64,000 bases of DNA. It comes from Chrysaora quinquecirrha. Lineage: Eukaryota; Cnidaria; Scyphozoa; Semaeostomeae; Pelagiidae. Position numbers and translations under genes: made by a program. The stretch lies in contig JACTAT010000045.1 in NCBI GenBank assembly GCA_014526335.1, positions 1,300,532 through 1,364,531 on the forward strand, read 5' to 3'. This document shows, piece by piece, positions 19,587-57,260 of the stretch (the stretch's first letter is position 1; each line of letters starts with the position of its first letter). The notes under the pieces were generated by a model. The model saw nothing but the letters and a program-made list of their open reading frames with translations. It did not search any database and was not told the DNA's origin.

Positions 19587-20433
19587 TCATTTCTTGAATG
19601 ATTCTTTCCCTTCAGCCAGTATGTCGGTGTTGACATAACTAATGTGAAATGTTAGAGATCTGGAAGCATTATAAATCATACAATCTTGCTTGTGATCAGT
19701 AGCATCAATTTGTTTTGTCCACAGCTCTGTAGTTGCACGCTTTTCCAATACTTTTTTGCCTTGTTGAAAATGTATTTCAGGAGAATTTCAGCATATGCTT
19801 CTTGAACTTGAACATCGATATTTGCTGGATCTTCTTCTTGTTTTTTTTCTTCTTTTGGATCTGCTCATTGTCACGTGCTGCTCTTTTGCGAGATGGAGGT
19901 GTCAGCATTTTCAGCTCAGCAAGCTTTCCATATTATGCTTTCAGAATTTCTTCTTTCAGATTTATTCCCGTCTTTGATGGTTTCTCATTCTTCCATCTTC
20001 GGATTCCAAGACAGAGCTGTAGAGGGAAATCACAAATTTTCGGCAGATAGATTTCCAACTTATCCTCATATGTTTCTTCTTCACTAAAAACTTCAGTGTA
20101 TAATGTTAGAAACTGTGTGATCCTACCACTATACTGCTTTGACTGAATGTGTACTTTGTTCTTCTCAAACAGACTTTCAGCATCTTCTCCGCGAAACTGG
20201 AATTGATCATTTATGTTTTCATCAACTATTTCCAGGAAACAAGATAGTGCTGCATGAGAAATACCCATTGACCTTACAGATTCACATTTTAGGTACCTTT
20301 CAGCACAACCACTGTATCTTGCAACTGCTGCTGCATCTTTCAACACTAACAACCATTTGTAAGAACCAGACTGAACAGCAAATGATGACTTGATTAGGCC
20401 CTCTTCATCTCTATTTTTGTAAATTGCAGCCAT
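19587..20433 (-). pseudogene. Unknown Polinton late gene next to the right-end promoter
   Basis: This is the first gene of the minus-strand block, starting MAAIYKNRDEEGLIKSSFAV at 20,433, directly below the right-end promoter. The first 166 codons are unbroken and end with a TAA at 19,933. Downstream, protein-like sequence continues through a basic stretch (PPSRKRAARDNEQIQKKKK). There a long A run (about 19,845) probably causes a frameshift. It ends in FHISYVNTDILAEGKESFKK near 19,587. No known domain was recognised; position and promoter suggest a structural or early-late protein. A 29-bp piece of this gene (19,651-19,679) reappears in the piggyBac-type element 2 kb away. Confidence 0.55.
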
Positions 20434-20439
20434 GACTCT

Positions 20440-20700
20440 TCAGTGATTTTTTAAGCTCCGCACTCACGACGACTTGTTACAACTGAACTGATTTGGTTTT
20501 GCGCATCATTTGTATAGACTGATCGAATGTGACGTTCGAATTATTACATCAATTAACCAATTAGATTGCAGGATTATTACGTCATTGAAGGGACTTTCCC
20601 GCTTCTAGAACCTTTTGGAAACTTTTGGAAACTTCTAGAGCCTTCTAGAACCTTCTATAATCTTCCAGAACATTCTCGAGAGACTTTCCCATTCATAAAT
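20440..20700 (-). promoter_or_regulatory. Right-end terminal repeat and late promoter of Polinton copy 1, with a GAA/TTC array
   Basis: Read on the minus strand towards the late genes, there is first a block of eight consecutive decamers (20,601-20,680) of the form nnTTCnnGAA. Of 16 pentamers 11 are exact TTC or GAA; the rest are TTT, GAG or TAA. A CCAAT box (AACCAAT on +, 20,552-20,558) follows, then a TTCGAACGTCAC motif, a TATA-like TCTATACAAA (about 20,509-20,518 inverse) and CAGTTCAGTT initiator motifs (20,481-20,493 inverse). The ATG is at 20,433. The order matches the promoter of the polymerase gene in copies 2 and 3, in inverse orientation, as expected for a terminal inverted repeat. 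Confidence 0.7.
20603..20680. promoter_or_regulatory. Heat-shock-element array, 16 phased pentamers
   Basis: TTC and GAA alternate every 5 bp over 78 bp (TTCTAGAA, TTTTGGAA, TTTTGGAA, TTCTAGAG, TTCTAGAA, TTCTATAA, TTCCAGAA, TTCTCGAG, each followed by two bases). This is the nGAAnnTTCn pattern bound by heat-shock factor trimers. Bases between the core triplets differ from those in copies 2 and 3, but the phase is kept. Confidence 0.75.
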
Positions 20701-20750
20701 GTCTCTTGCGCTCTTATAAGAGTAATTTTTACAGCACAATGTGATCTGTT

Positions 20751-21068
20751 CTACCATGAACTGTAGTATACTACAGTATATCCTTTGTCAATTACAGCAA
20801 GAGCATGTACAACAAACTCGTGATCATCTTTGATATATTCTTCATCAGCATTATTTCCAAAAAAGAAGCAATATGTTGTAGGTAGCCCTTTCTCGATAAG
20901 AGCCTTTTCTAGCTTGTCTAAGTCTACAAGTGTCAAATCTAGTTCGATACAGTTAAACTCGCCACAGTTACCCTTTTTGTGCCATAGTATTTCCATATTT
21001 CCATGTAGATTAGGATTTTTACACCAGTAGGCCAATTCTATTGAATCTTCACATTCAATGTTTTCTGT
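20751..21068 (-). CDS. Phage-like conserved small protein
   Basis: The open frame runs from 21,068 (no ATG; first residues ENIECEDSIELAYWCKNPN) to a stop at 20,751. It carries AYWCKNPNLHG near the start, then GEFNCIELDLTLVDLDKLEK, LPTTYCFFFGNNADEE and a C-terminal VVYYSSW. This arrangement (AYW..NPNLHG, FN.IEL.LTL.DLD.LE, LP...FFFG, DD..F, G..V.Y.SW) recalls an uncharacterised family common in tailed phages and bacteria. I recognise it by pattern only. It lies just outside the right terminal repeat of Polinton copy 1, on the late-gene strand, and could be a cargo or neighbouring viral gene. The lack of an ATG suggests a missing 5' part. Confidence 0.45.
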   Translation of the reverse strand, partial: TENIECEDSIELAYWCKNPNLHGNMEILWHKKGNCGEFNCIELDLTLVDLDKLEKALIEKGLPTTYCFFFGNNADEEYIKDDHEFVVHALAVIDKGYTVVYYSSW

Positions 21069-33134: not shown

Positions 33135-33461
33135 ATGTCTGCTGTCGTGGAGCTTGGAGCAGCATTGTTCTCCATGGGCATCAATTTCAAGGTTGCTCAG
33201 GCCCTTGTCAGTTCTCCAGATGAATACGCCAACAGGCTATCACTTGAACCAAATCCAGACCCAAAATTCAAAACATCAGAAAACCTCAATGACCTTATCC
33301 CACTACTACACCAAACGAAAAATATCCCTGCACAAGAAGACAACTCGGACATTGCTCACCTTTTGCGAATGCTCAACAGCCGCACTCCAGCTTCCACACA
33401 AGAGACATCAGTAGGTTGCAAACGAGTGGCTCTACTATCAGGTGGCTCCTACTATCAGTGA
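33135..33461 (+). CDS. Small ORF, 108 residues, related to the split gene at 21-23.6 kb
   Basis: It starts MSAVVELGAALFSMGINFKV and continues VSSPDEYANRLSLEPNPDPK and an acidic linker (AQEDNSDIAHLLRML). It shares order and motifs with the interrupted gene at 21,150-23,600: a hydrophobic GALF/Y..GIN helix, a PDxKFK turn, a leucine-rich helix, then acidic sequence. The last 15 residues look unrelated, so the original C-terminus is probably lost. It lies upstream of the heat-shock-type promoter of Polinton copy 2. Whether it belongs to the element is uncertain. Confidence 0.45.
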   Translation: MSAVVELGAALFSMGINFKVAQALVSSPDEYANRLSLEPNPDPKFKTSENLNDLIPLLHQTKNIPAQEDNSDIAHLLRMLNSRTPASTQETSVGCKRVALLSGGSYYQ

Positions 33462-33499
33462 CGTCATTAGTGACGTCATCAGATCGCGCTATAGCGCGA
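33459..33499. promoter_or_regulatory. Paired CRE/ATF sites and a 16-bp palindrome
   Basis: Two perfect TGACGTCA octamers (33,459-33,466 and 33,471-33,478) lie 12 bp apart. The perfect palindrome TCGCGCTATAGCGCGA follows (33,484-33,499). A diverged second copy of the palindrome and the following GTTTCTCCAACCTC string lies at about 33,585-33,625. This sits about 180 bp outside the heat-shock-element block. Copy 3 lacks it because its homology starts at about 55,057. Confidence 0.6.
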
Positions 33500-33673
33500 C
33501 GGTTTTTATGGATGTTGGTTTCTCCAACCTCGTTTTCAAGAGTCCCAGATCCTAGCGCACGCAGCTCATACTACCAATAACATCATTAGATCGCGCTATA
33601 GTGCGGCGAGTTTCTCCAACCTCAAGAGTTCCTTGCATGAAACCGCTAGTCTCGTTTCCGATTTAACAATCTA

Positions 33674-33696
33674 GAAGTTTCCAGAATGTTCCAGAA
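33674..33696. promoter_or_regulatory. Heat-shock element 1: five perfect pentamers
   Basis: GAA-TTC-GAA-TTC-GAA with exactly two bases between triplets (GAAgtTTCcaGAAtgTTCca then GAA). Confidence 0.85.
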
Positions 33697-33728
33697 CGTC
33701 CCTAAGAATCCTCTTATCTGATTGGTTA

Positions 33729-33761
33729 GAACTTTCCAGAACTTTCGAGAACTTTCTAGAA
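33729..33761. promoter_or_regulatory. Heat-shock element 2: seven perfect pentamers
   Basis: Seven alternating GAA/TTC triplets without a single mismatch over 33 bp (GAActTTCcaGAActTTC and onward to GAA at 33,759-33,761). Confidence 0.88.
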
Positions 33762-33866
33762 ATCCTACAATCTGATTAATTATGATGGCGTAATAATAAT
33801 TCGAACGGGACGTTCGAATGGTTTATGAAATAAAATAACATAATAATCCTACAATCTGTTCTGTTG

Positions 33867-33909
33867 GAACTTTCTAGAAGTTTCCAGAAAGTTCCATAAG
33901 ATTCTAGAA
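33867..33909. promoter_or_regulatory. Heat-shock element 3: nine pentamers, one imperfect
   Basis: Alternating GAA/TTC over 43 bp; only the seventh triplet (TAA at 33,897-33,899) departs from consensus. It lies about 60 bp upstream of the TATA box. Confidence 0.85.
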
Positions 33910-34015
33910 ATGAGAAATCCTGCAATCTGATTGGTTAATAATTCGAACGTCTCGTTCGATCGATCGATCTATAAAATCGAGCGTAAGACGAAATCAGTTC
34001 AGTTAGAAATTAATC

Positions 34016-36157
34016 ATGAAGAGGTCACACGAAGAAGAGAGCTCAGCTGCTAATAATAGTAAGCGAAGAAAAATCGCTTGTGATGTATGTGGAAATTGTT
34101 TGACAGAATGTTAAATCTTGCATCACATAAGCGAACAGCACATGATATACGCCCGTCAGCAGCAGAACAAAAGAAATTGGTTGGCGAAGGTAAGAACATG
34201 AACAAGATGGATAAGAAAGCATTCAGAATATATATCAAAGAAGAAGATATCAAAGACTGGGCAAGAATCACACAGCATACTATTCGAGAAATTAAAGAAG
34301 AATTGCCAGGTCACAAGCAAGGGATGAAGTATTATGTCACTATCGATGCCGAATTTAAAAAGTATGGTGATAAGCTTATCGTTACAGAACCACCACCCAC
34401 ATTCAGAACCACCGTGCAGACGCTTCTATGGTCAGAGTATGACGTTGCTGAAGATCAGATAGTTGAAGCTATCAACATACTGCGAGATAAGGTTGATGAA
34501 TTCTTGGAGAATGGAAGTGGTTGGATATTTACAAAGTTTACCCAACTACAAGTGAAGATATTTGATTATGATGCAATTCGTGGTGGAAAGTATTTGCAAC
34601 TGCCAACATACATAAAAAACAAGAAGGCTGTTCTCAATGTACAGAATAGTGACGATAAATGTTTCATCTGGGCAATTCTATCCGTCTACATCCACGATCG
34701 CAGAATCCAGAGAGAGCCGCACCATACTGGCGATACTTAGGTGAACTTAACTGTGAAGGATTGTCATATCCAGTAAAAGCATCCGATAAAAGATGATTGA
34801 TACATTTGAAATAAACAACAACATTTCAATCAATATCTATATGGATGAAGATGGCGAAATTGTGCCAGTAAGAATAACTGAAAATAAACGTGAAAAACAT
34901 GTGCATTTGTTATTGGTATTGAATGACGATGGTGAGAGCCACTATTGCTGGATAAAGGACTTGAGTTGTCTTTTAGCAGGTCGAGATGGTCACAAACGTG
35001 CTGGAAAACGTTTTTACTGTCCTCTATGCTTATTGTCATGTAGAACTCTAGAAAATTTGGAAAGGCATGAAAAGCTATGTAAGACTCCTCGAGCTGTTGA
35101 ATATCCTCAAGATACAGAATTAAAGTTTGAACATTTCAAACATCAGAGCTTGCTACCATTTATCATCTATGCAGATACTGAATCCATTCTGGAAAGCTCA
35201 AACAAAAGAGCTGCTTATCAAGAACACAAGCCGATCAGTTATTGCATTTATATCAAATCAATCGATGATAGATGGCAACAACCGTTGGAATGCTATACTG
35301 GTGAAGACTGCATGGAGGTGTTGATGAATCGTCTAGATGAATTGAATGAGGAAATCCGAGCAGTGTTCAAGAAAACCATGCCGATGATTATATTAACACC
35401 CGAAGAAAATGCAAGACATCATATGGCTACACACTGCTATTGCTGCAAGCAGCTATTTGATGGTAACAATAGAAGAAAAGTCAAAGATCATTGCCATGTA
35501 ACTGGTAGGTTTTCTGAAAATTCTGAAATTATTTGTTGGACTGTAAATTGCTTTATAGTTTTTCCTTGTTTACTTTGTGGAAGTAATTTTGTTTCTTTTC
35601 TTTTGTACAGGTGAATACAGAGCACCAGCTTGCAAGTATTGCAACTTCAAACATCTAGATATAATAGCAAACACTCACACGATCCCGATCGTCTTCCAAA
35701 ATCTCAAAGGGTATGACATGCATCATGTTCTGAAGAATTTTAAAGGTAGAAATACAAAGATCATCGCCAATTCGAAAGAAAAGATCATGACTGCACAGAT
35801 TGGTTCTCATACTGATGTGAATGAAGATGGTAAGGAAAGAAATATTCATGGGATCAAATACATTGACTCCTTTGCATTTCTGAGTACAAGTTTGGCAACA
35901 CTAGCAGGCAACCTACCGAAAGAACAATTTGTCTCTATCAAAGGTCACCTACATGATGAGATTACTCAACAGCAGTACCCTAGTGTACCGAGAAATGAAC
36001 AGGAAAGAGTTGCAGAATTGAAAAGAGAATGCCAAGGAATGTTTGAGCCTGGTGTAGCATGTAAAACCCGCTAAAAATGAAGATGTTCTAGATTATAGAA
36101 ATTGGAAAATACCATCAAGGAGAGATTTGACAGATGCTGAAGCTGAAGAAGGTGTTG
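34016..36157 (+). pseudogene. Polinton DNA polymerase B, copy 2, N-terminal half
   Basis: The N-terminal part has a C2H2 zinc finger (near 34,080-34,140), a second finger-like CPLC...HEKLC motif (about 35,020), an exonuclease-I-like IIYADTESI (about 35,165), and a Cys-rich CYCCKQLFDG...DHCHVTG block (about 35,440-35,504) that continues after an intron as EYRAPACKYC. Then comes an exonuclease-II-like LKGYDMHHVLK. Compared with copy 3, single bases are missing in homopolymers near 34,091, 34,682 and 34,788, giving frameshifts. The coding region stops at the inserted composite X (36,158). The C-terminal half resumes at 41,971. About 85 residues present in copy 1 are absent between the two halves. 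Confidence 0.85.
35505..35610 (+). other. Spliceosomal-type intron, 106 nt, in polymerase copy 2
   Basis: The boundary is CATGTAACTG|GTAGGT ... TTCTTTTGTACAG|GTGAATAC. The interior is T-rich with a strong polypyrimidine tract. Removing it keeps the reading frame through a conserved Cys/His motif, whereas read-through meets a TGA immediately after the acceptor. Copy 1 has contiguous coding sequence at this position (around 12,790). The identical intron occurs in copy 3 at 56,926-57,031. Confidence 0.85.
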
Positions 36158-36464
36158 TAATCTATCCTCACCGAATCCTATTCTCTTCCTTCCAATTGGC
36201 TAAGATATGGAGAGTGCGAAGGAGGCTTCGCTGTTTGAAGGGTAGAGAGTAGGCGAGACCGTCGCTGCGGGAGGAGTGAAGGGGCAGCTTATCTTATATT
36301 GCGAGTTGCTGAAGAAGGATGGCTAAATCACATGCATTGAGTTTTATAACCCAACAAATCCCCTTAGGAGGTCATTGCCTTGCTGAATGTATCCCCAGGG
36401 GGTCTTTAGATTGTCTTATCTTAGCCTCGTTACAAATTCAGAGATTTGCATCCGGTGAGAATAG
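36158..36464. mobile_element. Element X-s, 307 bp, short form
   Basis: It starts TAATCTATCCTCACCGAATC and ends GCATCCGGTGAGAATAG. The ends form an imperfect inverted repeat, CTATCCTCACCGAATCC against CTATTCTCACCGGATGC. It shares its first roughly 60 bp and last roughly 178 bp with X-l, so it looks like an internal-deletion derivative. TAAT flanks both sides. It carries a 49-codon frame (MAKSHALSFITQQIPLGGHC..., ATG at 36,319) that runs across the right end. Confidence 0.6.
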
Positions 36465-39261
36465 TAATCTATCCTCACCGAATCCTATTCTCTTCCTTCC
36501 GATTGGCTAAGATATGGAGAGTGCTCCGGAGGCAGCAGTATGATACAGGCAGAATACCCCAATATACTAAGATTACCGCAAGGGACAGCATAGGAAAAGA
36601 CACCTTATATCCATAACTCAAATAGAATAGGAGCATTAGAAAGTAGGGGTATTAGAAGTAGGGGTAAGAGAAAAATCCACATAGGGATAAGCCCGAAACC
36701 GAATAAGGATAGTAGAAAAGATAAAATGTGCCGTGATTAAAATCTCCAATATGTTGGAGTCCCTGTACAGTATCCAGCAGAGAAAGAAGACACAGCATTC
36801 ACAACGAAAAAATCTTATACTAAAAATAACATTCTAAGAAACAATGTACGCCAGCAAAAATACATTACTCCAACTGAGAATCAGCATTCTGCCAGCAAAC
36901 ATTGGAATAGGAGCAAGCCAAACCTAGGAAAAGAAATGTTAGCTAGCTGGGAAATGGCCAGCTATGGAATTCTGCTGACAAGACATAAGGCTGAAAGAGA
37001 AAATGATGATGAAGTTTCGATCGGCATCAACTGGCTGTCGTGAAGGGTGTCAAGAGGAACTCACCGAATTCCTCAAGAAAATAAGAAGATAAAAGATAAC
37101 AAAACAAATTAATGGAACAAGATAAAAGTTAAGTAACGCGACTAAAAGGGTTGAAAGAAGTTACCCCCTTCTAAGGGGTTACAAAAATAGAGTAAAACCC
37201 CCGCGGAGGACGGATAAGATCGAAATGCACATGGCACTTTGCTCAGTAAAGTAGTAACAGACTGACATAAAAACAATATCAAGATGAAACGAGTTAACCC
37301 AATCCTTACGTAACCCTTAATAAAACCTAACTTGATTTAGCTTAATTAACCTAAGTTATCCGAACTTAATTTTACCTAACGTAATTAAACCTAGTTAACA
37401 GAAACCTTAGTAAGAACTGAATTGAAATAATTGTAGTAGACAGTTCAGCGAATACAAATGAAATCCTGCAAGACCTAAATGGAGCACATGAAATGAAATA
37501 CTACCTGATAAGGCAGTCTGGTTAGCGTATAAAGCTATGATGAATGATCAGACCTATCATTTGTATAAGGCCCTGGATGCTAAGTAAAAGAAAAGCAAGC
37601 GAATTTATAATACAAATCCAACGCGAAAACAATCAGTTAGGGGAATTTAGGTGAAACTATCCCTAACGATCATCCTATCTACTCTAAGCTACCGAACACA
37701 TTTTGCTGAATGCAAAGTTAAAGCAATAGGAATACAAGGTTATTGGTAATTAAACACATTGGATAAGGGATGCCCCAAGGAAATAATGAACCACCCAATA
37801 ATGGCAAATTCTGTCGTTTCTGTATAATTTGTTGTAGATGCCAGTACTGGATATATAACAACAAAATTTTTACACCTTTGTTAATACGACTAAGTTATGT
37901 TAGCGAAGTTTGTTGAGGCATAACAATTGAAAAGTAAAGGTTTGACATTGGAAAAGCATGCTTTACAAAATCCAGGGGAAGTACCAGTTAGGTTTTTACA
38001 AAGTAATATATTTTGGTAAAGCAATAAACAAAACAAAGTCCCCCTAATTCGAAACTAAGATAACATGAATCCTGGTTAGCAAAGGTAAACAATTTTAGTC
38101 AGTGACAGGTGGGAAAAAAGAAACCAATGTGCTAGAGGCACAATTCAACAATTGATTGGTGAGACAAACTAAAGCAATAATTGGTAAAAGGAAACAGAGT
38201 GACCCTGGGGGATAAGAAAAATCAAAAGTGAACTTAGATTAGGGCACAACAATAAAATGTATTCCAAACAACCTACCTAAACACCAAGTCCTGAGCAATA
38301 CATATGGAAATCAACCTAGTTTGTATATGTAGGTGTGATTCATATGATAAAACATAGACTCATATAAGGTGACTCTTTATGCAGCGTAAAAAAGAAAAAG
38401 CCTTGTATGAAACAAAGATAGGAAACTACACATGCCCTGTATAAAATGGTATGGAACTTATCAAGACCTCAATTGGTAGAAACTCCCTCCATAGCAAAAG
38501 GCAGGATATCTGATAGCAATAAAATTTAAAGCACTTTGTATCTTGACATGTAAAAAGGATTTCCGAGTGCCTGGGTTGGAATAAAAAACAGCTTCTGAAA
38601 AAATATGTTAAATACAAACACGGCATAAAAGCAAATATAGTGCAGAGATTAAATTGAAGAAAGCAAGAGGAGGTAAGAATTGATATTTGAATAGCAAATG
38701 AATGAGAAAAATCACCAACCCAGCCACTCAGACCGACAGTCAGAGACCGCGTATTAAGGCCTTTAGATAAGCCCCGAGTGGCTAAGAAGGAGGGAAGATG
38801 GAATTTAAGAGTGGAAAGAGGAATAAGAGAGTAGTAAAAAATATAACAAAATCACAAAATCTAATGAAAGACATCCTATAACAAATAAACTAATAAGAAA
38901 AAAGAAAAGCAAATGTTTCAATAAGAGAAAACTATTATCATAGGCAACCACAGGGATTAAATTGCAAAAGATGAAAAGAAGATGCTACGCCCCTGCAGAA
39001 CTATCATGGAATATCAGATCAAGTAAAGAAAATATCAGACAATTACATAAATATTACATACTAGTTATCAGCAAATCCACTAATTGATAGAGGTAAAGGA
39101 AGTGCATATAACAATGAAAAAATCAATCAATGAAAAATGAGATCCATTGCATAAACAACATGCAAAATAATATCATGAACTTAAGTATCAGATCAGTCAG
39201 AAAATTGTTGAGCATAAAAAGAAGAGCACATACTTTGTATCTTGACATGTAAAAAGGATAT

Positions 39262-39366
39262 CTGAGTGGCTGGGTTGGAATAAAAAACAGCTTCGGAAAA
39301 AATATGTGAATAGAAACTCATAAGTAGTATAAGCAAAGAGAAAATAAACCCAACCCAGCCACTCAG
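39262..39366. repeat. Perfect 17-bp inverted repeat in X-l
   Basis: CTGAGTGGCTGGGTTGG (39,262-39,278) is matched exactly in inverse at 39,350-39,366, leaving a 71-base loop. A less perfect version lies at about 38,563 and 38,709, inside the duplicated segment. The same pair recurs in copy 3 (about 60,365-60,470). Confidence 0.8.
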
Positions 39367-40054
39367 ACCAACAGTCAGAGACCGCGGATTAGAGCCTTTA
39401 GTTAAGCCCCCGAGTGACTGTGAAGGATGAAAAGATAGAAATTCGATAGCATGAGAAGAAAAAGAAAACATTATCAAAAGAAAGAAACATACAAACAGAT
39501 TCTAAAAGCAATTGCTACATATGACGTCATATTTTCATAAGAACTAAAAAGCCAATCGCAATAGTATCTGCAACGATATAAAAACCCTATTAATTCATAG
39601 AAGCAACCTATATTGTAGGGTAGCGATTAATAAAATCCAATATTCATTGCTGAGCCATAAGTAAGCAGAACTTAAGCTGCACAAAAGACAGCAATGGCAT
39701 CCCCACCAATTTAGTGGCAAAACCTCAAGAATAGAATGAATAAACTTTGAAAATGAGGCTCAATGGCCAACCATAAAAAGTTAAGAGAAATCATGGAAAT
39801 AATCTAACAGCATGAGGAGCCACAAGAAGATCAACTTTTGATAGTAAGCTTTTCTCAGGTTCATTGTTAAAGATGCAAGGCAAATAATTAACAATCAATT
39901 GTGTCAAAATATTTGATATGAGATTTTGATCGCAAGGCTGCTTTGGTCCACTGTCATGCAAGAAAAATCATTGAAAAAATCAATAACCTGACAGGGCTGC
40001 AAAAGTTTTGATAGTAAGAATTTTCAGGTCCACCATGAACATGCCAGAAAAATC

Positions 40055-41310
40055 ATTAAACAATCAATAAACTGATGGGGCCACATAATAACATTTTGAT
40101 TGTAAGCATTTTAGGTTCACCATCAACATGCAAGAAACAATTATTGCACAATCAATTAACTGATGGGGCCACATAATATTTCAATTGTAAGCATTTTCAG
40201 GTCCACCATCAACTGGCAAGAAACAAATATTGCACAATCAATAAACTGATGGGGCCACATAATAACATTTCGATTGTAAGCATTTTCAGGTCCACCATCA
40301 ACTGGCAAGAAACAATTAATTGCACAATCAATTAACTGATGGGGCCACATAATATTTCAATTGTAAGCATTTTCAGGTCCACCATCAACTGGCAAGAAAC
40401 AATTATTGTAAATCAATAAACTGATGGGGCCACATAATAACATTTCGATTATAAGCATTTTTAGGTCCACCATCAACATGCAAGAAACAAATATTGTAAA
40501 TCAATAAACTGATGGGGCCACATAATAACATTTCGATTATAAGCATTTTTAGGTCCACCATCAACATGCAAGAAACAATCATTGCACAATCAATAAACTG
40601 ACTGGGCCACATAATAACATTTCGATTATAAGCATTTTTAGGTCCACCATCAACATGCAAGAAACAATCATTGCACAATCAATAAACTGACTGGGCCACA
40701 TAATAACATTTTGATAATAAGCATTTTTAGGTCCACCATCAACATGCAAGAAACAATTATTGCACAATCAATAAACTGATGGGGCCACATAATAAAATTT
40801 TGATTGTAAGCATTTGTAGGTCCACCATCAAGATGCAAGAAACAATTGTTGCACAATCAATTAACTGATGGGGCCACATAATAAAATTTTGGTTATAAGC
40901 ATTTTTAGGTCCACCATCAACATGCAAGAAACAATTATTGCGCAATCAATAAACTGATGGGGCCACATAATAACATTTTGATTATAAGCATTTTTAGGTC
41001 CACCATCAACATGCAAGAAACATCAAGTGCGCAATCAATAAACTAATGGGGCCACATAATAAAATTTGAGATTGTAAGCATTTTTAGATCCAACATCAAC
41101 ATGCAAGAAACAATTATTGCACAATCAATAAACTGATGGGGCCACATAATAACATTTTGATTGTAAGCATTTTCAGGTCCACCATCAACTGGCAAGAAAA
41201 AATCATTGAACAATCAATAAACTGATGGGGCCACATAATATGAAGTTCTGATAGTCAGAATTTGTCAGGTTCACTGGCAAGATGCAAGAAAAATCATTGA
41301 ACAACAACCC
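40055..41310. repeat. 89-bp tandem repeat in X-l
   Basis: About fourteen units built from CAATCAATAAACTGATGGGG, CCACATAATAACATTT, GATTGTAAGCATTTTCAGGT and CCACCATCAACATGCAAGAA. The repeated minus-strand open frames (CFLHVDGGPKNAYN...) are an artefact of the unit length. The array recurs in copy 3 with slightly fewer or shifted units. Confidence 0.9.
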
Positions 41311-41970
41311 TTTAACAGGACAACAAGATACCCATACATCTTCATAGGTATCTAGATAGATAGTAAGCTTAAGTTGTGTAAAACGAATGAGCAAAATTTG
41401 TATCGGTGCCTCTAATATTTATGCAATGCTTTGCACCCTTAAATAAGCAATAACAACAGGTAAATTCAATACCAGGAGGTGTTTAGGCCGACACAAAACT
41501 GGTCGGCAGCACTGAAACGGCCTCTAAATATATCTACTGAGGAAATGAGGTCTAAATAGACACGTTGTTGCAGAAAAACACTGGGTATGATTGCAAAATG
41601 CAACAAAAATTGAAAAAACAACTGGCACAAACAATGGCCTGAAAAATTAACAGGAATAGAAGGGAATAGAAAATGATATACAACTTCACGCTTTAATGTT
41701 CCTCCAGATTTTTAGTATTACCTTAGGCCTATTAAAATGTTCCAGGCCAAGCATAGTTTGGCAGCGACGGCTTTCGGTGTCACGTCGAGCAGCTACATCT
41801 TATATTGCGAGTTGCTGAAGAAGGATGGCTAAATCACATGCATTGAGTTTTAAAACCCAACAAATCCCCTTAGGAGGTCATTGCCTTGCTGAATGTATCC
41901 CCAGGGGGTCTTTAGATTGTCTTATCTTAGCCTCGTTACAAATTCAGAGATTTGCATCCGGTGAGAATAG

Positions 41971-43500
41971 TTCAGAACCCAAAGTCTGGAATTCTACGGA
42001 CTCGATCCTGCACATTATCTAACCGCTCCTTCACTGGCCTGGGATGCGATGTTGAAGATGACCGGTGTGAAGCTGTAATTGTTATCTGAAGAAAAGAAGG
42101 ACATTCTACTTATGATTGAAGATGGTATTCATGGTGGTGTCTCGATAGCAGTGAAACAGCATGCTAAATCAACAGAAAACAACACGCTGATGTATCTGGA
42201 TGCAAACAATCTCTATGGATGGGCAATGTCGCAACCAATGCCGTATGGTGGTTTCAAGCAGTTTACACAAGAAGAAATCAGGAATACAGACATCCAGGCT
42301 TTGCTGACAAGATCGAATGAAGATGTTGGTTATATTTTCAAAGTCGATTTGGAATATCCAGCCGAATTACACAATCATCATGCAGATCTACCATTGGCGC
42401 CGCAAAGATTACAAGTTCAAGAAGACATGCCATCAGAACATCAAAAGAACGCTCACGAAGAACTTTTCGATGGAAAAAAGTTTAAGTCAACACCAAAGCT
42501 AATACCAAATCTATTCAACAAAGAAGAATACCTCCTGCATGAAAGAAATTTGAAGCAGTGTTTGGAATTGGGTTTGAAGCTGACAAAAGTTCATGAAATC
42601 ATCGAATTCAAGCAAAGTCTATGGTTGAAAGAATACATTGATTTTAATACCCAGAAGAGAACACATGCAAGAAACGACTTTGAAAAAGATCTGTTCAAGT
42701 TGATGAACAATTCCGTGTTCGGGAAGACGATGGAAAATGTTCGAAATCATGGACCTTTTGAAATCTGTACTGATGGAGAAGTCTTGAGGAAATGGGTAAG
42801 AAATCCAAACTTTTACGGAGTAATTGAAATCAACGAAGACACGCTTTTGGTTGAGAAAAAGAAGAAGAAAGTTACACTCAACAAACCAATGTATATTGGT
42901 TTCAGCATATTGGATATTAGCAAAACATTGATGTATGATTTCCACTATAACTTTGCAAAGCCAAACCTTCCAAATGTTGAGCTATGCTACATGTATACTG
43001 ATAGTTTCATCTACGACATACCAATGTCTAAAGATCAAGTCGATAAAGTATTGAAAGATCACAAAGATGGATTCGATTTCAGCAATTATGATAAAGAACA
43101 TCCAAATTACTCTACAAGAAACAAGAAAGTTATCGGGAAAATGAAAGACGAGCTTGGTGGTGTGGGAATGAAAGAATTTGTTGGATTGAGATCAAAGATG
43201 TATAGCTGTCAAATCAATGGTGGAAATACAATCAAAAAAGCGAAAGGAATCAAAAAGTATGTTGTGAAGAAGCAAATGAAGCTTGAAGATTATGTGAAAT
43301 GTTTGATGGAAATAAGAGCGGATGCACACATTCAACGCAACATTGAATCACAATGTCACACCATCTACACTACGGAAAGAAAAAAGGCATCGCTGAATCC
43401 CTTTGATGATAAAAGATACATTCTTGATGATGGATTGAACACGCTGCCATATGGACATTATTCGCTAGAAAGACGCTGTGAAGAAGAAAACATTGATTGA
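41971..43500 (+). pseudogene. Polinton DNA polymerase B, copy 2, C-terminal half
   Basis: Coding similarity resumes at 41,971 (LEFYGLDPAHYLTAP). After a TAA at 42,076-42,078 there are 473 uninterrupted codons. Motif A region: YLDANNLYGWAMSQ (about 42,197). Motif B: KLMNNSVFGKTMENV (about 42,700). Motif C: LCYMYTDSFIYDI (about 42,985), where the first catalytic Asp of the usual DTDS core is Tyr. The C-terminus (RRCEEENID) is complete. Loss of a metal-binding Asp in motif C would be expected to abolish polymerase activity. Copy 4 (63.5 kb) has the same Tyr, so the change predates the duplication. Confidence 0.88.
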
Positions 43501-43615
43501 ACTGTTTTAACAAACCATTTTAACAAACTGTTGTAACAATATTCTAAACTATTTTAACAAACTGTTGTAACATTATTCTAAACTGTTGTAATAAATTGTT
43601 TTAACAAATGTAAAT
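43500..43615. repeat. AACTGTTTTAAC repeat between convergent genes, copy 2
   Basis: Same family and position as 15,142-15,312, with fewer units, between the polymerase stop and the protease stop. Confidence 0.75.
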
Positions 43616-44063
43616 TATATCTTCGTTTAACATAGTTGTAAACAAATAAATCGTTATCTAACTTGTTACGAATGTTGAAATATTTATTAACCATTGAGTT
43701 CATTGAAACGTTTTTTGTTCTATTGATTAGAAAGAATATGCAATGTTGTCCACATGTAGCAGTCTCATAGGATTGAACTTGAACCTTGTTATAAGCGAGC
43801 TGGAACGGTCTAATAAAATCTAGAAATTCTTTCAACATAGGAGGTTCACCAAACGAATCATAGAAATCCAATCGACCATCATCAGCGATATAGACAGCTA
43901 CCCAGTGGGTTCCTTTACCAGTAAAATTATCTTCATTGAAAATAAATGAACAAGGTAGAGAATGAATGTCGATGTTTTTGATTTCATCTTTCCCAAATAC
44001 ACCATGGAAATGAGGTAGCTTTTCACGTTTTACAAGTAAGTTATTAATCGTTATATCATCCAT
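43578..44063 (-). CDS. Polinton adenain-like cysteine protease, copy 2
   Basis: The start is MDDITINNLL at 44,063 and the stop at 43,578, about 161 residues, uninterrupted. The catalytic His is in GTHWVAVYIADD, the acidic residue in LDFYDSFG, and Gln/Cys in TCGQHCIFFL, so all expected catalytic positions are present. The C-terminus ends KQFITTV. It lies 2 bp from the major capsid stop on the same strand, as in other Polintons. The role would be maturation of capsid and core proteins. It is the most intact late gene of the window. Confidence 0.88.
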   Translation of the reverse strand: MDDITINNLLVKREKLPHFHGVFGKDEIKNIDIHSLPCSFIFNEDNFTGKGTHWVAVYIADDGRLDFYDSFGEPPMLKEFLDFIRPFQLAYNKVQVQSYETATCGQHCIFFLINRTKNVSMNSMVNKYFNIRNKLDNDLFVYNYVKRRYNLHLLKQFITTV

Positions 44064-44065
44064 AA

Positions 44066-45375
44066 TTACCAATCTCGAATGATATTTTTATGACTATCAA
44101 TTTGAATGACTCTATCAAATTCACCGAAAATTACAATGTTCATCAAACTGTCAACAGCGTTTGCAAAATTTATGCTGATTCTCACATTACCCTCTCTTTT
44201 AAGCAAATATTGCTCATCTGCACAGTTTCCTTTAGGTGTCAAATCAAAACCATAGATTGCCGATCCTTGTTTGAATCTATCATAATCAATTAGACTAGGT
44301 GAATTATTAAAGCTGGTCACCAAGCGGCTGTAGGCATCAAAGTAATCATCATCATCATAATTCAATCTTAGAGGTGGAGTAATTTCTTGATTGTCAACAG
44401 CCACTTGAATGGCAGAAACAGAAACATGTTCAAACTCAAACGGATTTCCTTCATCCGCTCCATTGAATGATGAATTATCAACCAACGCAAAAAACAATCT
44501 GTTTGGAATCTTTCCATTGAACACATTATCTTGAACCCAGTTGGTTGTTGCAGCATTGATTAAGTAGCTTGCCATGTGAGGTTGACAGACTGGGTAAACC
44601 GCATTCGTTTTCATCAGTGTTCTTTCAATTCCTTTCAATACATCATCTTTAAGATGTATGTGGCGAAGCACCAGTTTCACTTCGGAAATGTACAGACGTG
44701 AAATGTTTCCAGTCTTTCTCATCAAACAAAACACATCAATGTTTGGACTCAATCGCCATTGAAGACGAACACCAGGCAGCAAGTATTTGCTTTGATTGCA
44801 AATGTTGCAATGAGGTTTTGTCAACACTTTAACCTTTTCACTATCATCAAATGGTGCAGATCTTGCATTTAAACCCAGATTTTTTAACGTTGCGGTTGTT
44901 GGAAAACCAACATTTTATTTGCCAATCGTATCACTGACCCAGTTTGTCATTTTCAAATAGTTTTTAGCTCTGGTTTCATCAAACGTCAGAATTGTTTCCA
45001 AGTAAGATTGGTAGGCATACATTCCATTTGCTTCTGTGACGGGAGTGTCATTCAAAACCAGCTCTATCTGCTTCCACATGGATTGGCCAATATTACTTAT
45101 TACTCCAGCAAATTCTGCAGTGGTTTTTCCAATATTACTTCCATCGACTCTTTTAATAGCTAGAGTCGAGACGAAATAAGAATGATTCAAGTCAATCATA
45201 TGATCCGGCTGAGCAGGAATGTCAAACACAACAGTTTGTTTTGAGGCATTGAGAGCAGCAGTTTGTGGAAAATATTCAACATCTTTAAAATACTTGACAT
45301 CCAAACTTTCACTAGGACATTCAGTAAAATCAAACTTTCACTAGGACATTCAGTATATTCTGGCTTTATGCTCAT
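44066..45375 (-). pseudogene. Polinton major capsid protein, copy 2 (one stop, one frameshift)
   Basis: The start is MSIKPEYTECPSESL at 45,375. A 29-bp tandem duplication (24-bp string at 45,302-45,325 and 45,331-45,354) shifts the frame about 15 codons in. The correct frame resumes in the second copy and is open (DVEYFPQTAALNAS ... NYLKMTNWVSDTIGK) to a TAA at 44,915-44,917. After it the same frame continues to 44,066 (LLPGVRLQWRLSPN, NGADEGNPFEFEHVS, YGFDLTPKGNCADE). The family is the double-jelly-roll capsid protein. Apart from these two breaks the whole length is preserved. Confidence 0.88.
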
Positions 45376-45810: not shown

Positions 45811-48800
45811 TTATAAAATTTCTATCAAATGTGACTTCAGTTTCGTTTTGAACATATTTTTAGTTTTAGTTTTAGCACTTCTGATATGATCTGGCAATTC
45901 ATTCCAGAGTTTTGCTCCAAGATACCCTAAAGAGTTTAAGCCATATCTAACTGTGTTTTTTTGATTCAAGTATAAATTGCCTCTACTAGCTTGCCTGGTA
46001 GAATATTGATGAACATATGAACTCAAGCAGAAGAAATTATGAAAGCAACTAGGAGATATTTTGTGAATTGATTCATAGACAAAAGTTAAGAGTTTTAAAT
46101 GGAAAACATCAGAGAGTTTAAGAATCTTTAGATCTTTGAAAATGGGAGAAGAATGCGAATTAGATGATTCAAATGAGATGGCCCTGACAACCTTTTTTTG
46201 TAATTTGAAAATAGGATCAATATACGTTGTGCAAGTACTCCCCCAAACAGTTATTCCATATTGCAAAAATGATAAAAATAAAGCGTTATACAAGCATAAC
46301 AAAGTGTTCAATGACACAAAGTTCCTTATCTTAAAAAACATTCCACATATTCTGGCAAGTTTTTTTGACAGTTGATTAAGATGATGTTTCCAGCTAATAT
46401 TCTCATCAAGAAGTACTCCCAAGAACTTTATAAATTTCACTCTATTAATTGGTTTTTTGCCTATTTTAATATTAATGTCAGAAGGAACTTTAATTGACAT
46501 AGAATGAAATAAAATAAAATTTGTTTTTTCAATGTTCAGTGAGAGTTTGTTGGCATTGAGCCATTTCATCACAAATTTTAGTTTCTTGTTAACAGTTTTA
46601 ACTAAATGGGTCAAATTTCCATCTTCAAGATAGATGTTAGTATCATCAGCAAATAGATAAAATTTTAATTTAGTTGAAGCAAGAGGTAGGTCATTAATAT
46701 ATATCAAGAAGAGTAATGGGCCCAAGACTGATCCTTGAGGGACACCACAGTTTACTGTAAGCAGGCTGGAATTTTGTCCATTAATTGACACATATTGTTT
46801 TCTTTGAAAAAGGTAAGATTTGAACCAGTCGAAAGCACAACCACGGATACCATAATGTTCAAGCTTAGACAATAATATTTGATGGTTGACAGTATCAAAT
46901 GCCTTTTGTAAATCAATGAAAACGCCGCATCCAAATTTTTTGCAATCCAATGTGCTTCTAATTGATTCAGTCATGCTAATGAGAGCATGATCAATGGACC
47001 TATTTTCTTGAAACCCAAACTGTAAAGAATAAAAAATATTATGGACCTCAAGAAATCTATAAAGTCTTTTATACATTAGTTTTTCAAACAATTTACTAAA
47101 TATAGGGAGAAGAGAAATAGGCCTGTAATTTGATGGTAGTTCTGGATCTCCTTTCTTGAAGATAGATATAACTTTTGCTACTTTCAATTTATTAGGAAAA
47201 ATGCCAACCTGAAATGACTTATTAACAAGTGATGCAAGAGATGGGGAGATGGAGGAACCAATTATTTTGAGCATTTTTATAGGAATACTATTAGGACCAA
47301 CTGATTTTGAAGAGTCCAACAGATTAATCAAGTCCAAAATTTCCTCACTGGTTACAGGGGAAAGAAACAATGAAGCAGGATTTCTATTTTGTAAATAGTC
47401 CAGAGGCGATTTTGGTGTTTTAGGAATTTTGGATGTAATTTTATCTGCAACATTAGTAAAAAAATTATTGAAGATGTTTGACATATCAGAGGGATCAGAA
47501 GTTATGTTACCAAAATCATCCTTAATTTTATTGATAGTGGAAGGGGTAGTAGACTTTTGAGAGATTATTGTTTTAATGCCAGACCATAGTTTTTTCATGT
47601 TATTATTATTCTCATGGAAATAGTTATAGTAATATCTTGCTTTACTTTGTTTGATTTCATTAGAAACCCGATTCCTAAATTTTTTATAAAGAGTAAGGTT
47701 GTTAGCAGATTTATTCTTCTTTAGCTTATGTAAGATTTTGTCTCTAATTTTCATCATTTTTTGTATTTTACAATTAATCCATGGTTTATTTTTAAACTTG
47801 ATTTCTTTCTTACTACGTTTAGTTATTGGTGCATGGTTACTTGACAAAGAACTAAGTACTTCCAAAAACCTATCAAATTTTTCATTGACATCCATATTAT
47901 CGAATTCTAAAAATGATAGATCAAGATTGTTGAAATCTTCAATAAAGTTTTGCTCATTTAGCTTAGAAAATCATGTTTAAAACTTACAGTTTCATTATAA
48001 ACAATTTTGCTATTTTTCATGACCATAAATTGAGGGAAGTGGTCAGAAATTTGAGTTAGGATATTACCACAAGTTAGATCTCCTATTGCATTTGTAAAAA
48101 TATTGTCAATCACAGATTCAGATTGATCAGAGACTCTACTTGGATGATGAATGCAGGGTAAGAAGTTGTTAACAGAGAGAAAATTAATAAAGTCATTTGT
48201 TGGTGTGTGAGAGTCATAGTTGAGTAAGTTGATATTAAAGTCACCCATTATAAAAACCAGTTTGTTCAAAGATATCTTTGCAAAAATGTTTTCAAAGTGA
48301 TCAGTAAGAGTTTCAATATCAGTACTAGGGTGTCTGTAAACACAACAGAATAGCATATTTTACTTTTTTATTGTCAATTTCTACCCAAACAGTTTCAAAA
48401 TCTGAGTTAGAGATGTTCAGGTCATTCCTATGGATTGCTGTAAGTGATGATTTAATATATAAACCAACTCCACCATTTTGGCTTGAAGAAGAAGTCTTAT
48501 ACAATATGTAACCTGGAATGTCAACATTAGTTGTAATGGGATGGTTATCACTATCCCAAATTTCAGAAACACCAATTACATCAGGATGGAAAGTAAGTTG
48601 ATTGCATAATGCTATCAATTCCTCATGATGGCAAGAAAGGCTTCGTATATTAGTGTGCAGAACAGAAAGATCTGATGAAGAATAGTGCAAGGATGAAAGC
48701 TCTGGCAGTGTGAAATAACGAGAATCAAGAGTTTGAGGCATCTGCTCATCAATATCATAATCGCTTAAATTAGGCAAGTTAGTGAGATGTGAAGTAATTT

Positions 48801-49104
48801 CATAAGTGGGCGTGTAATCTGCAAAGCACGGTGATTTTAAATCAAAGACCTTAAGGAAGTCCTCATTTTCTTCGTTGCCAAATGGAAATATTGATGCATT
48901 TTTATTGATTTCACAATTTATACAATACCAAGGTACATTATCCATTTCCTTAGAAAGATTATCAAATTCTGCATTGGAAATATTGTTGCATTTTGCATGT
49001 ATCCAAAAACAACATTTGCTGCATTGAATAGATTTTTGATTTCTTGTAATATTTTTTTGGCAAACCCCACATGGGAATTTAGGATTACCTATTCTGCTGG
49101 CCAT
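45811..49104 (-). pseudogene. LINE ORF2: PHD finger, APE endonuclease, reverse transcriptase
   Basis: The start is MASRIGNPKFPCGVCQKNIT at 49,104. A PHD finger (CGVC...CSKCCFWIHAKC...WYCINC) comes first, then an APE-type endonuclease (SVLHTNIRSLSCH, GVSEIW, GDFNINLL, SDHFPQ). There is a frameshift near 48,340 inside the endonuclease and another near 47,940. The reverse transcriptase (from 47,895, 694 codons) has SNYRPISLLPIFSKLFEKL, CGVFIDLQKAFDTV, GVPQGSVLGPLLFL and FYLFADDTNIY. The C-terminal region includes QYGITVWGSTC and QKKVVRAI. The reverse-transcriptase half is unbroken. PHD-containing ORF2 is known from CR1/L2-type LINEs. The protein would copy its own RNA into DNA at a nicked target. 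Confidence 0.9.
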
Positions 49105-49213
49105 AGCTATTTAAATTTGTGACGAAAAGGAAGATTATATTTGAAACTAACTGAAAAAAAGAAAAAAAAGAAAAATTGAAACAAACACAAAAAATTTAGG
49201 CCTTACTTTAAGT

Positions 49214-50852: not shown

Positions 50853-51197
50853 TGTTACAATCTCTCAAAAAAATGGCTTAACCTAAGCTAAACACTAGGC
50901 CCTACTTTAAGCTAAAAAGCCTTACGACGACGTGTGATAGAGCTTTCTCTGGCTTCCTTTAAGTTCAACTGCTTTCAACTAAATTACAAGCTGTATATGT
51001 ATATCTGTATAGCTGTATATATATCCAAAGAAATCTAAAATTAAGTATACATTAATGTAAGACTAAGCAAGTGATAACAAAAAAAGGAAGGGCTAGGCTG
51101 AATAATGGTAAGAAGTAAACAAAAAAAGCGACAAACTACGTAAAATGCTAAGCAAAAGTGATGGGAAAGCGATGACTTAAAGCCTATGAGTCCTACA
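50853..51197 (-). repeat. 3' LTR of the Gypsy element, about 345 bp
   Basis: On + it begins TGTTACAATCTCTC at 50,853 and ends GAGTCCTACA at 51,197 (TG...CA ends). The integrase stop is at 51,193-51,195, so the frame runs just into the LTR. The second LTR is missing, so the boundaries rest on the TG/CA rule and on resumption of penton coding sequence at 50,852. Confidence 0.65.
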
Positions 51198-54740: not shown

Positions 54741-55056
54741 CGACTTCTCCAACGTTCTGACATCAGGATTGCTGATTTTGATTCTGGATTCGGTTTGGAT
54801 TCTGATTCGGGCTCTGATTCTGAATCTGGTTCTGGTACCGGGATCTGTTCTGATACTGATTCTGATTCTGAGGGCAATTCCTTTTGAGATGACCAGGCTG
54901 ATGACACTGGAAGCATGTTCTTGACCTTGGGGCACCTTGATACTGGGGATACTTCGGGGCTGACTGGGCTGACTGTGCTGCCAGGTTCTGTACGGCTGAT
55001 GTTAAACTCTGTATGGCTTTCCAAATCTCATCGTTGCTTTTCGTTCTGTCTTCATT
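54741..55056 (-). pseudogene. Gypsy gag fragment with zinc knuckle
   Basis: In the frame entering at 55,056 (SNDEIWKAIQSLTSAVQNLA) a CCHC knuckle, CFQCHQPGHLKRNC, lies at about 54,885-54,925. It is followed by an Asn/Gln/Arg-rich stretch (about 54,780-54,880) and a stop near 54,765. Only the C-terminal end of gag remains. Confidence 0.75.
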
Positions 55057-55433
55057 AAACCGCTAGTCTCGTTTCCGATTTAACAATCTAGAAGTTTCCA
55101 GAATGTTCCAGAACGTCCCTAAGAATCCTCTTATCTGATTGGTTAGAACTTTCCAGAACTTTCGAGAACTTTCTAGAAATCCTACAATCTGATTAATTAT
55201 GATGGCGTAATAATAATTCGAACGGGACGTTCGAATGGTTTATGAAATAAAATAACATAATAATCCTACAATCTGTTCTGTTGGAACTTTCTAGAAGTTT
55301 CCAGAAAGTTCCATAAGATTCTAGAAATGAGAAATCCTGCAATCTGATTGGTTAATAATTCGAACGTCTCGTTCGATCGATCGATCTATAAAATCGAAGC
55401 GTAAGACGAAATCAGTTCAGTTAGAAATTAATC
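55057..55433 (+). promoter_or_regulatory. hsp70-like promoter of Polinton copy 3
   Basis: Same parts as copy 2, offset by 21,417: heat-shock elements at 55,091-55,113, 55,146-55,178 and 55,284-55,326, CCAAT boxes between them, TATAAAA at 55,387-55,393, tandem TCAGTT initiators, and the ATG at 55,434. The outer CRE/palindrome block of copy 2 is not present; Gypsy sequence lies there instead. Confidence 0.8.
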
Positions 55434-57260
55434 ATGAAGAGGTCACACGAAGAAGAGAGCTCAGCTGCTAATAATAGTAAGCGAAGAAAAATCGCTTGTG
55501 ATGTATGTGGGAAATTGTTTGACAGAATGTTAAATCTTGCATCACATAAGCGAACAGCACATGATATACGCCCGTCAGCAGCAGAACAAAAGAAATTGGT
55601 TGGCGAAGGTAAGAACATGAACAAGATGGATAAGAAAGCATTCAGAATATATATCAAAGAAGAAGATATCAAAGACTGGGCAAGAATCACACAGCATACT
55701 ATTCGAGAAATTAAAGAAGAATTGCCAGGTCACAAGCAAGGGATGAAGTATTATGTCACTATCGATGCCGAATTTAAAAAGTATGGTGATAAGCTTATCG
55801 TTACAGAACCACCACCCACATTCAGAACCACCGTGCAGACGCTTCTATGGTCAGAGTATGACGTTGCTGAAGATCAGATAGTTGAAGCTATCAACATACT
55901 GCGAGATAAGGTTGATGAATTCTTGGAGAATGGAAGTGGTTGGATATTTACAAAGTTTACCCAACTACAAGTGAAGATATTTGATTATGATGCAATTCGT
56001 GGTGGAAAGTATTTGCAACTGCCAACATACATAAAAAACAAGAAGGCTGTTCTCAATGTACAGAATAGTGACGATAAATGTTTCATCTGGGCAATTCTAT
56101 CCCGTCTACATCCACGATCGCAGAATCCAGAGAGAGCCGCACCATACTGGCGATACTTAGGTGAACTTAACTGTGAAGGATTGTCATATCCAGTAAAAGC
56201 ATCCGATAAAAAGATGATTGATACATTTGAAATAAACAACAACATTTCAATCAATATCTATATGGATGAAGATGGCGAAATTGTGCCAGTAAGAATAACT
56301 GAAAATAAACGTGAAAAACATGTGCATTTGTTATTGGTATTGAATGACGATGGTGAGAGCCACTATTGCTGGATAAAGGACTTGAGTTGTCTTTTAGCAG
56401 GTCGAGATGGTCACAAACGTGCTGGAAAACGTTTTTACTGTCCTCTATGCTTATTGTCATGTAGAACTCTAGAAAATTTGGAAAGGCATGAAAAGCTATG
56501 TAAGACTCCTCGAGCTGTTGAATATCCTCAAGATACAGAATTAAAGTTTGAACATTTCAAACATCAGAGCTTGCTACCATTTATCATCTATGCAGATACT
56601 GAATCCATTCTGGAAAGCTCAAACAAAAGAGCTGCTTATCAAGAACACAAGCCGATCAGTTATTGCATTTATATCAAATCAATCGATGATAGATGGCAAC
56701 AACCGTTGGAATGCTATACTGGTGAAGACTGCATGGAGGTGTTGATGAATCGTCTAGATGAATTGAATGAGGAAATCCGAGCAGTGTTCAAGAAAACCAT
56801 GCCGATGATTATATTAACACCCGAAGAAAATGCAAGACATCATATGGCTACACACTGCTATTGCTGCAAGCAGCTATTTGATGGTAACAATAGAAGAAAA
56901 GTCAAAGATCATTGCCATGTAACTGGTAGGTTTTCTGAAAATTCTGAAATTATTTGTTGGACTGTAAATTGCTTTATAGTTTTTCCTTGTTTACTTTGTG
57001 GAAGTAATTTTGTTTCTTTTCTTTTGTACAGGTGAATACAGAGCACCAGCTTGCAAGTATTGCAACTTCAAACATCTAGATATAATAGCAAACACTCACA
57101 CGATCCCGATCGTCTTCCAAAATCTCAAAGGGTATGACATGCATCATGTTCTGAAGAATTTTAAAGGTAGAAATACAAAGATCATCGCCAATTCGAAAGA
57201 AAAGATCATGACTGCACAGATTGGTTCTCATACTGATGTGAATGAAGATGGTAAGAATTG
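55434..57260 (+). pseudogene. Polinton DNA polymerase B, copy 3, N-terminal half
   Basis: The N-terminus is intact: exon 1 (55,434-56,925) is open for 497 codons. It begins MKRSHEEESSAANNSKRRK and contains a C2H2 finger (CDVCGKLFDRMLNLASHKRT), a second CPLC finger, IIYADTESIL (exonuclease I) and CYCCKQLFDG...DHCHVTG. Exon 2 starts at 57,032 in phase (EYRAPACKYCNF). Coding ends at HTDVNEDGK, where element X-s begins (57,261). About 320 residues present in the copy 1 arrangement are missing between here and the C-terminal half at 62,938, so the gene is interrupted. The basic N-terminus looks like a nuclear-localisation signal. Confidence 0.88.
56926..57031 (+). other. Spliceosomal-type intron, 106 nt, in polymerase copy 3
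   Basis: Same boundaries as in copy 2 (ACTG|GTAGGT, TTTTGTACAG|GTGAA). Exon 2 continues in the frame of exon 1 only if exactly 106 nt are removed. Read-through stops at a TGA at 57,033-57,035. Confidence 0.85.

Follow-up and report, generated by a model that had tools for sequence, protein, structure and literature searches.

The window analysed here, i.e., the whole 64-kb stretch of DNA taken from a 328-Mb eukaryotic assembly, contains two copies of a promoter that stands before a polymerase (PolB) gene, together with protease-like and capsid-like reading frames (Table 1). The polymerase genes of this window are damaged. In copy 1, the ATG is located at 34016, directly behind the promoter as the earlier note had claimed, but the frame is broken in its first ~100 bases and the listed ORF begins at 34087. 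In both copies, the same stretch parts the two polymerase portions (36155-41960; 57258 onward), so the copies probably derive from a local duplication. This separating stretch holds repeats of ~300 bp and a tandem satellite of ~89 bp. On the minus strand, inside the Polinton or next to it, there are an ORF for a LINE-type reverse transcriptase and a pol of the Gypsy type (45811-49110 and 51193-55062), and copy 2 starts at the point where the Gypsy gag end appears to be cut. A comparison of the window with Rfam at gathering scores gave no match.

Table 1. Features of the Polinton promoters and neighbouring genes in the window
Feature	Position	Strand	Remarks
Left terminus of the Polinton (AGTAGGTTGC...) with outer terminal repeat	33410..33640	+	GCGCTATAGCGC palindrome inside
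HSE array 1	33674..33696	+	5 exact pentamers
CCAAT box (inverted, ATTGG)	33721..33725	-	
HSE array 2	33729..33761	+	7 exact pentamers
HSE array 3	33867..33909	+	9 pentamers, 8 exact
CCAAT box (inverted, ATTGG)	33930..33934	-	
TTCGAACG..CGTTCGA palindrome	33941..33959	+	common to PolB and internal promoter
TATA box	33970..33976	+	
Two overlapping TCAGTT initiators	33994..34004	+	starts 33994 and 33999
PolB 5' coding region, copy 1	34016..35614	+	open stretches 34087-34740, 34793-35614
PolB 3' coding part, copy 1	42079..43500	+	apart from 5' part; no Pfam match
Protease-like ORF	43578..44087	-	weakly similar to the ASFV cysteine protease S273R (E 0.0016); unmatched in Pfam
Capsid-like ORF pieces (label presumed)	44066..45337	-	no Pfam match for 44066-44914
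Second promoter copy, left end truncated	55057..55433	+	arrays 55091-55113, 55146-55178, 55284-55326
PolB 5' ORF, copy 2	55434..57035	+	533 aa; N-terminal C2H2-like finger
Diverged internal-type Polinton promoter	20436..20760	-	two exact 3-pentamer runs, CCAAT, palindrome, TCAGTT
ORF of second HSE-headed unit	19933..20433	-	

The promoter region (33640-34015) carries three phased GAA/TTC arrays of the heat-shock element (HSE) type, with 5, 7, and 9 pentamers. A recount agrees with the earlier note on the size of the arrays, their exact 5-bp phase, and the number of exact triplets (20/21). In array 3, the unbroken exact run consists of the first six pentamers (33867-33894), and the seventh is imperfect (ATAAG). 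Within the region, there are eight cases in which TTC starts 5 bp after GAA and none in which the distance is 4, 6, or 7 bp; the counts for GAA after TTC are identical. Exact runs of at least four pentamers are confined, in the 64-kb window, to these arrays and the corresponding ones of copy 2 (55091-55311). Simulation of 100 windows by an order-1 Markov model gave four-pentamer and three-pentamer runs at means of 0.04 and 1.3 per window, respectively, and longer runs did not occur.

The two CCAAT boxes and the TATA box reported earlier were also found, both CCAAT boxes being inverted. The claim of a single, correctly spaced TCAGTT initiator holds in part: the initiator at 33999 lies 31 bp from the TATA box (first T of TATA to the A of the initiator), which is the textbook TATA-Inr spacing, but it overlaps a second one at 33994, for which the distance is 26 bp. 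The limits given to the region also needed correction. It does contain the promoter but not the whole upstream unit; with the element terminus at 33410, it begins 230 bp inside the element. The outer 230 bp contain two CRE-type TGACGTCA sites (33459 and 33471), which are 12 bp apart and span 33459-33478. We take the TGACGTCA motif to be a CREB/ATF-type (CRE) site. At least one such site is found within 350 bp of an array in all 20 other loci checked, which suggests that the promoter may receive a further, CREB/ATF-type input.

The nature of the element that carries the arrays was assessed from protein matches and element ends across several copies. A DNA_pol_B_2 domain was detected by Pfam with an E-value of 2e-22 in stretch L079 (884-2494), which belongs to an element on contig C212; an endonuclease VII-type domain (Pfam 1.7e-5) is located just before the polymerase domain in the same ORF. 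Pfam recognised no polymerase in the six other polymerase pieces scanned (four from the window, L078:7418-9121, and L079:2497-3291), among them the 3' ORFs from the window and from a 22.4-kb element described below. A Pox_A32 packaging ATPase was found in stretch L044 (Pfam, E 3.5e-7), and a chromodomain, as carried by Polinton integrases, in stretch L047 of the 22.4-kb element, downstream of its internal promoter (E 4.9e-10). L047 also holds a Fic-domain ORF (443-925, Pfam 6e-11), which lies inside this Polinton and upstream of the internal HSE promoter. No rve core was detected among the ORFs of the 22.4-kb element given to Pfam, which represent part of its frames. For the capsid-like ORFs, the best Pfam match was an unconvincing one to Capsid_N (0.07), and no sequence match was obtained in the PDB. 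PHROGs and NCBIfam yielded no capsid or polymerase match, and the predicted structures of a capsid-like ORF and of the protein encoded behind the internal promoter were poor (pLDDT 30 and 43, respectively). A search of IMG/VR with the polymerase 3' part returned no Polinton relative.

Exact 6-bp target site duplications (TSDs; 6/6) flank L019 (TATGAA), L026 (ATTGAG), and L036 (ATACAC), with termini AGTAGG; no 6-bp TSD was found in L029/L030, which are identical stretches on two contigs. The 22.4-kb element (C2:7057548-7079915) has terminal inverted repeats (TIRs) of 302 bp with 94.7% identity, ends in AGTAGG, and has flanks matching at 5/6 positions. Its polymerase is situated at one end, and the capsid-like and other ORFs are on the opposite strand. 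The DNA_pol_B_2, Pox_A32, and chromodomain matches and the weak S273R-like protease match, taken with the termini and the TSDs, therefore identify the carrier of the arrays as a Polinton/Maverick, an assignment in which the integrase core and the capsid identity are without a confirming sequence match. Thus, the earlier description of a Polinton polymerase promoter with truly phased HSE-type arrays is borne out by both its anatomy and the element matches.

Shorter forms accompany the large elements. The non-autonomous Polinton derivatives L019, L026, L029/L030, and L036 measure about 3-7.5 kb. Three of this set have several arrays in long TIRs (1.2-1.9 kb) and differ in the sequence that follows TATA; L029/L030 is palindromic across most of its length. 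At about 355-369 kb on C212 (L017, L079, L080, and L028), there is a palindromic Polinton derivative in which each end carries a PolB promoter and the internal promoters, with arrays of up to 11 pentamers, are mirrored. A symmetrical TIR structure was rejected as a general property of the copies, as it holds for the small non-autonomous and foldback forms only.

Genome-wide, the five-pentamer string GAANNTTCNNGAANNTTCNNGAA has 3008 matches (1470 forward and 1538 reverse), counted as overlapping places so that one array may be counted more than once, whereas the same string read backwards has 19. Among the matches listed, which cover C2 and the start of C46, 20 of 21 stretches are Polinton promoter, terminal-repeat, or adjacent coding sequence. 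These 21 are every stretch listed: 19 on C2, L021 (also C2), and one on C46. The arrays are therefore strongly enriched in this Polinton lineage, in a survey that started from the arrays and pooled intact and damaged copies; this comes close to the check proposed in the earlier note. The sole non-Polinton stretch, L045, has 5-pentamer arrays at 1992-2014 and 7149-7171 in a local duplication. Extrapolation from one contig, by the share of matches that falls on C2, suggests several hundred array loci in the genome. Copies of the promoter itself gave at least 45 matches, a lower bound because 40 of 761 first-look candidates were scored. A six-pentamer query of IMG/VR matched 15 stretches, which were taken as chance with one matched place each; their contigs have 34-65% G+C, and some of the matches are mutual repeats or lie in long open frames.

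The arrays are not restricted to the polymerase gene. A second, internal promoter type was found in seven of the 20 stretches of the C2/C46 set and in the palindromic element on C212, with arrays of up to 11 pentamers. It heads an ORF of about 330-366 aa, where open, whose product has a lysine-rich stretch and no family match. The PolB and internal promoters have a string in common, consisting of the HSE, AATCCTGCAATCTGATTGG, the TTCGAACG palindrome, TATA, and TCAGTTCAGTT. Downstream of the internal promoter, ATPase-like peptide words occur on the same strand in 6/7 C2 stretches, and an ATPase-like frame of at least 120 aa is open in 4 of the 7; the words are absent from L047, L078 (22.4-kb element), L079, and L080. 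In the 22.4-kb element, the internal array (7065882-7065904) precedes the capsid-side ORFs, which share its strand, and the promoter lies about 7 kb before the capsid-like ORF. Presumably, a single transcript covers this internal block, from the internal promoter to the capsid-side ORFs.

The earlier note had described the promoter as built like that of an hsp70 gene, which proved to be an understatement. In a divergent, intronless hsp70 pair of the host, exact runs do not exceed three pentamers, in comparison to as many as 11 in Polintons; one gene of the pair has two 3-pentamer runs and a CCAAT box upstream, and the other has neither. Four further HSP70 loci scanned for exact runs had none. 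This comparison is defined by exact runs in hsp70/HSP70 loci.

Constraint on the arrays was analysed in an alignment of 37 distinct promoter copies (40 hits of at least 290 bp less three identical ones), including both copies from the window; in four rows, which have an extra module, the 3' end is misaligned. The mean pairwise diversity was 0.014 for the triplets, 0.103 for the array spacers, and 0.093 for neighbouring non-array columns, i.e., spacers varied about sevenfold more than triplets. The permutation p value of about 2e-4 for triplet versus spacer columns overstates the significance, since the copies were picked by likeness to the query promoter and are related, and the columns are not independent events. 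In a subset of 19 copies with less than 97% identity, the values were 0.021 and 0.109 (permutation p 4e-4), a fivefold difference, and array 2 alone gave 0.005 and 0.155 among the 37 copies. By position, the diversity was 0.025, 0.005, and 0.013 for the three triplet bases and 0.165 and 0.041 for the first and second spacer bases, so the contrast rests mainly on the first spacer position, the second being close to the triplets. These values support a stronger conservation of the GAA/TTC triplets than of the spacers, as judged from aligned copies. For the polymerase, the codon positions had diversities of 0.040, 0.028, and 0.043 (22 sequences), the third barely above the first, and this can be compared only roughly with the promoter because the two sequence sets differ; the pooled nonsynonymous-to-synonymous ratio against copy 2 was about 0.38.

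Length changes inside the arrays mostly keep the phase as well. Indels inside arrays were multiples of 10 bp in 13/15 rows (11 and 1 bp in the others), by which the array phase is kept; at array edges, 11 further rows had indels of 9 or 2 bp, which are not multiples of 10. Outside the arrays, 10-bp deletions occurred in 7/87 indel rows. Two or more arrays of at least four pentamers are present in 37/37 copies, and three or more in 36/37. Furthermore, the dinucleotide in TTC-nn-GAA junctions is CA/TG or TA in 140 of 159 cases (58 distinct arrays), and HSF prefers CA/TG or TA between TTC and GAA.

HSF is general in animals. The arrays are probably working sites for the HSF of the host that have been selected during Polinton multiplication, with HSF driving both promoters; this reading is based on the 5-bp phase, the enrichment, the conservation of the triplets, the reuse at two promoters, the end asymmetry considered below, and the junction bias. 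It is in trimeric form that HSF binds HSEs, and it does so cooperatively at longer sites (PMC9148306). Points against the reading are that, according to the same study, most HSE-bearing genes of C. elegans have no heat response and that the polymerase genes of this window are damaged. On this reading, HSF trimers would bind cooperatively along the 5-11 phased pentamers and, with CCAAT-binding factors and TATA/Inr-directed Pol II initiation, would switch on the polymerase gene at one end of the element. Likewise, HSF would activate the internal promoter and, with it, the unit gene, the packaging ATPase, and the capsid-side genes on the same strand, so that replication and particle genes would rise together whenever HSF is active. 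HSF occupancy and the joint activation of the two promoters are inferred from the sequence, and so is a trigger by heat or proteotoxic stress. Infection or HSF activity during development may equally be the cue, the sequence being neutral in this respect.

The strongest alternative is a variant of this explanation whose likelihood overlaps with it, in which HSF acts but responds to a cue in the germline, the early embryo, or infection, where transposition would pay, heat being incidental. We rate it somewhat below an even chance. HSFs have germline and developmental roles, the sequence names no trigger, and the CRE-type TGACGTCA sites near arrays in 20/20 loci would fit more than one signalling input, but arrays of up to 11 pentamers, compared to three in hsp70, agree better with strong inducible binding than with basal binding.

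An unlikely alternative, by analogy, is that the arrays serve replication or end recognition, with HSF or another protein marking the origin. Host NFI and Oct-1 sites serve replication at adenovirus ends, and the small non-autonomous elements with full arrays in both long TIRs would be in line with such a role, as would the occurrence of the array 1 counterpart in both terminal repeats of the 22.4-kb element. However, this counterpart is the sole array inside the 302-bp TIR. Four further exact arrays (5, 6, 5, and 7 pentamers), i.e., 4/5 of the total, are located outside the TIR at the PolB end, where TATA and TCAGTT are 25 bp apart, and the left end is without these arrays. A check of the first 1.2 kb at the left end revealed no TATAAA[A/T] and one remote TCAGTT. 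On these grounds, the view of the arrays as a terminal-repeat feature only was rejected. A role in end replication would predict equal arrays at both ends, so the inequality, observed in one element, favours transcription over end replication. Moreover, a related module is found at the internal promoter, which is some 8 kb away from the closer end, and both modules adjoin TATA and TCAGTT.

It is very unlikely that a protein of the element itself, either the C2H2-like finger or the internal-unit protein, binds the arrays and that their likeness to HSEs is due to convergence. A C2H2-like finger is indeed present at the polymerase N terminus (copy 2, E 3e-4, below Pfam's cut-off), and the internal-unit protein is lysine-rich without a known family, but one finger would not account for 5-11 alternating pentamers, and the grammar specific to HSF consists of 5-bp dyads in alternation, with a YR step linking TTC to GAA. 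Slightly less probable still is that the arrays are inert 10-bp tandem repeats, generated by slippage and copying of one ancestor and conserved by descent or gene conversion: the copies are related, modules are duplicated, 10-bp changes could be slippage, and one spacer position is conserved, but descent or conversion would affect triplets and spacers alike, whereas spacers vary five- to sevenfold more than triplets in the same arrays and copies, and the module is reused at two promoters at matching positions.

Mavirus and EMALEs are related to Polintons. These integrated viruses have genes that share a promoter motif matched to the presumed reactivating agent; there, the motif may match the late promoter of a giant virus (PMC8547959), whereas here the motif is matched to a host stress factor. 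Vertebrate Mavericks resemble the present elements in their 6-bp TSDs, TIRs, AGT-type ends, and PolB and ATPase genes, to which a protease and a capsid are added in Mavericks and protease-like and capsid-like ORFs here; their end motifs are (AGT)2, i.e., AGTAGT, and (AG)3, in contrast to AGTAGG here, and HSEs are not described in the sections of that paper cited (PMC8097293). In KSHV and EBV, HSF2 acts at the ORF50 and BZLF1 promoters in the switch from latency to the lytic cycle, although these are herpesviruses, and phased arrays of this kind are not noted in the cited portion of the source (PMC12047821). ONSEN/COPIA78 of the Brassicaceae also has heat-responsive promoter elements and is active in heat stress (PMC3907296, PMC5059998), but it is a plant LTR retrotransposon and not a relative of DNA viruses, and the extracts cited do not note arrays this long. 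Closest in kind, along with ONSEN, are the Helitrons of Caenorhabditis. These DNA transposons contain tandem overlapping HSEs and supply most HSEs of a genome (almost two-thirds in C. elegans), and upon heat shock HSF-1 drives an autonomous copy of full length; HSF binding has been shown there (PMC6927752), whereas for the Polinton arrays it is predicted from the sequence. Helitrons are rolling-circle elements and are not known to carry capsid genes, whereas here long arrays stand at two separate promoters of a virus-like Polinton. No report of HSE arrays in Polintons was found in searches of one open-access library. Heat-activated mobile elements are thus already known, and what appears to be new is a heat-shock-type promoter in a virus-like DNA element, and at two of its promoters.

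We know of no cue that wakes Polintons in animals. Polinton particles had not been observed in animals as of 2021 (PMC8097293, section cited), and one Polinton-like transcript is among those changed in a sea anemone at a CO2 vent (PMC6505742, in the portion cited). The present arrays suggest that stress of the host cell may switch the element on. More tentatively, and by analogy, the system could be a counterpart of stress-induced prophage induction, with replication and particle genes wired to HSF for a coordinated exit and with the arrays titrating HSF or rewiring genes. If true, proteotoxic stress or infection would trigger the coordinated exit of an integrated element, and the several hundred array loci extrapolated above would load the genome with strong HSF sites. 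Control of the element by HSF would account for the falling of 20/21 examined long-array stretches in one element lineage and would extend heat-activated mobile elements beyond retrotransposons and Helitrons to virus-like DNA elements. With a named candidate host factor at the polymerase and packaging-side promoters, the waking of Polintons becomes directly testable.
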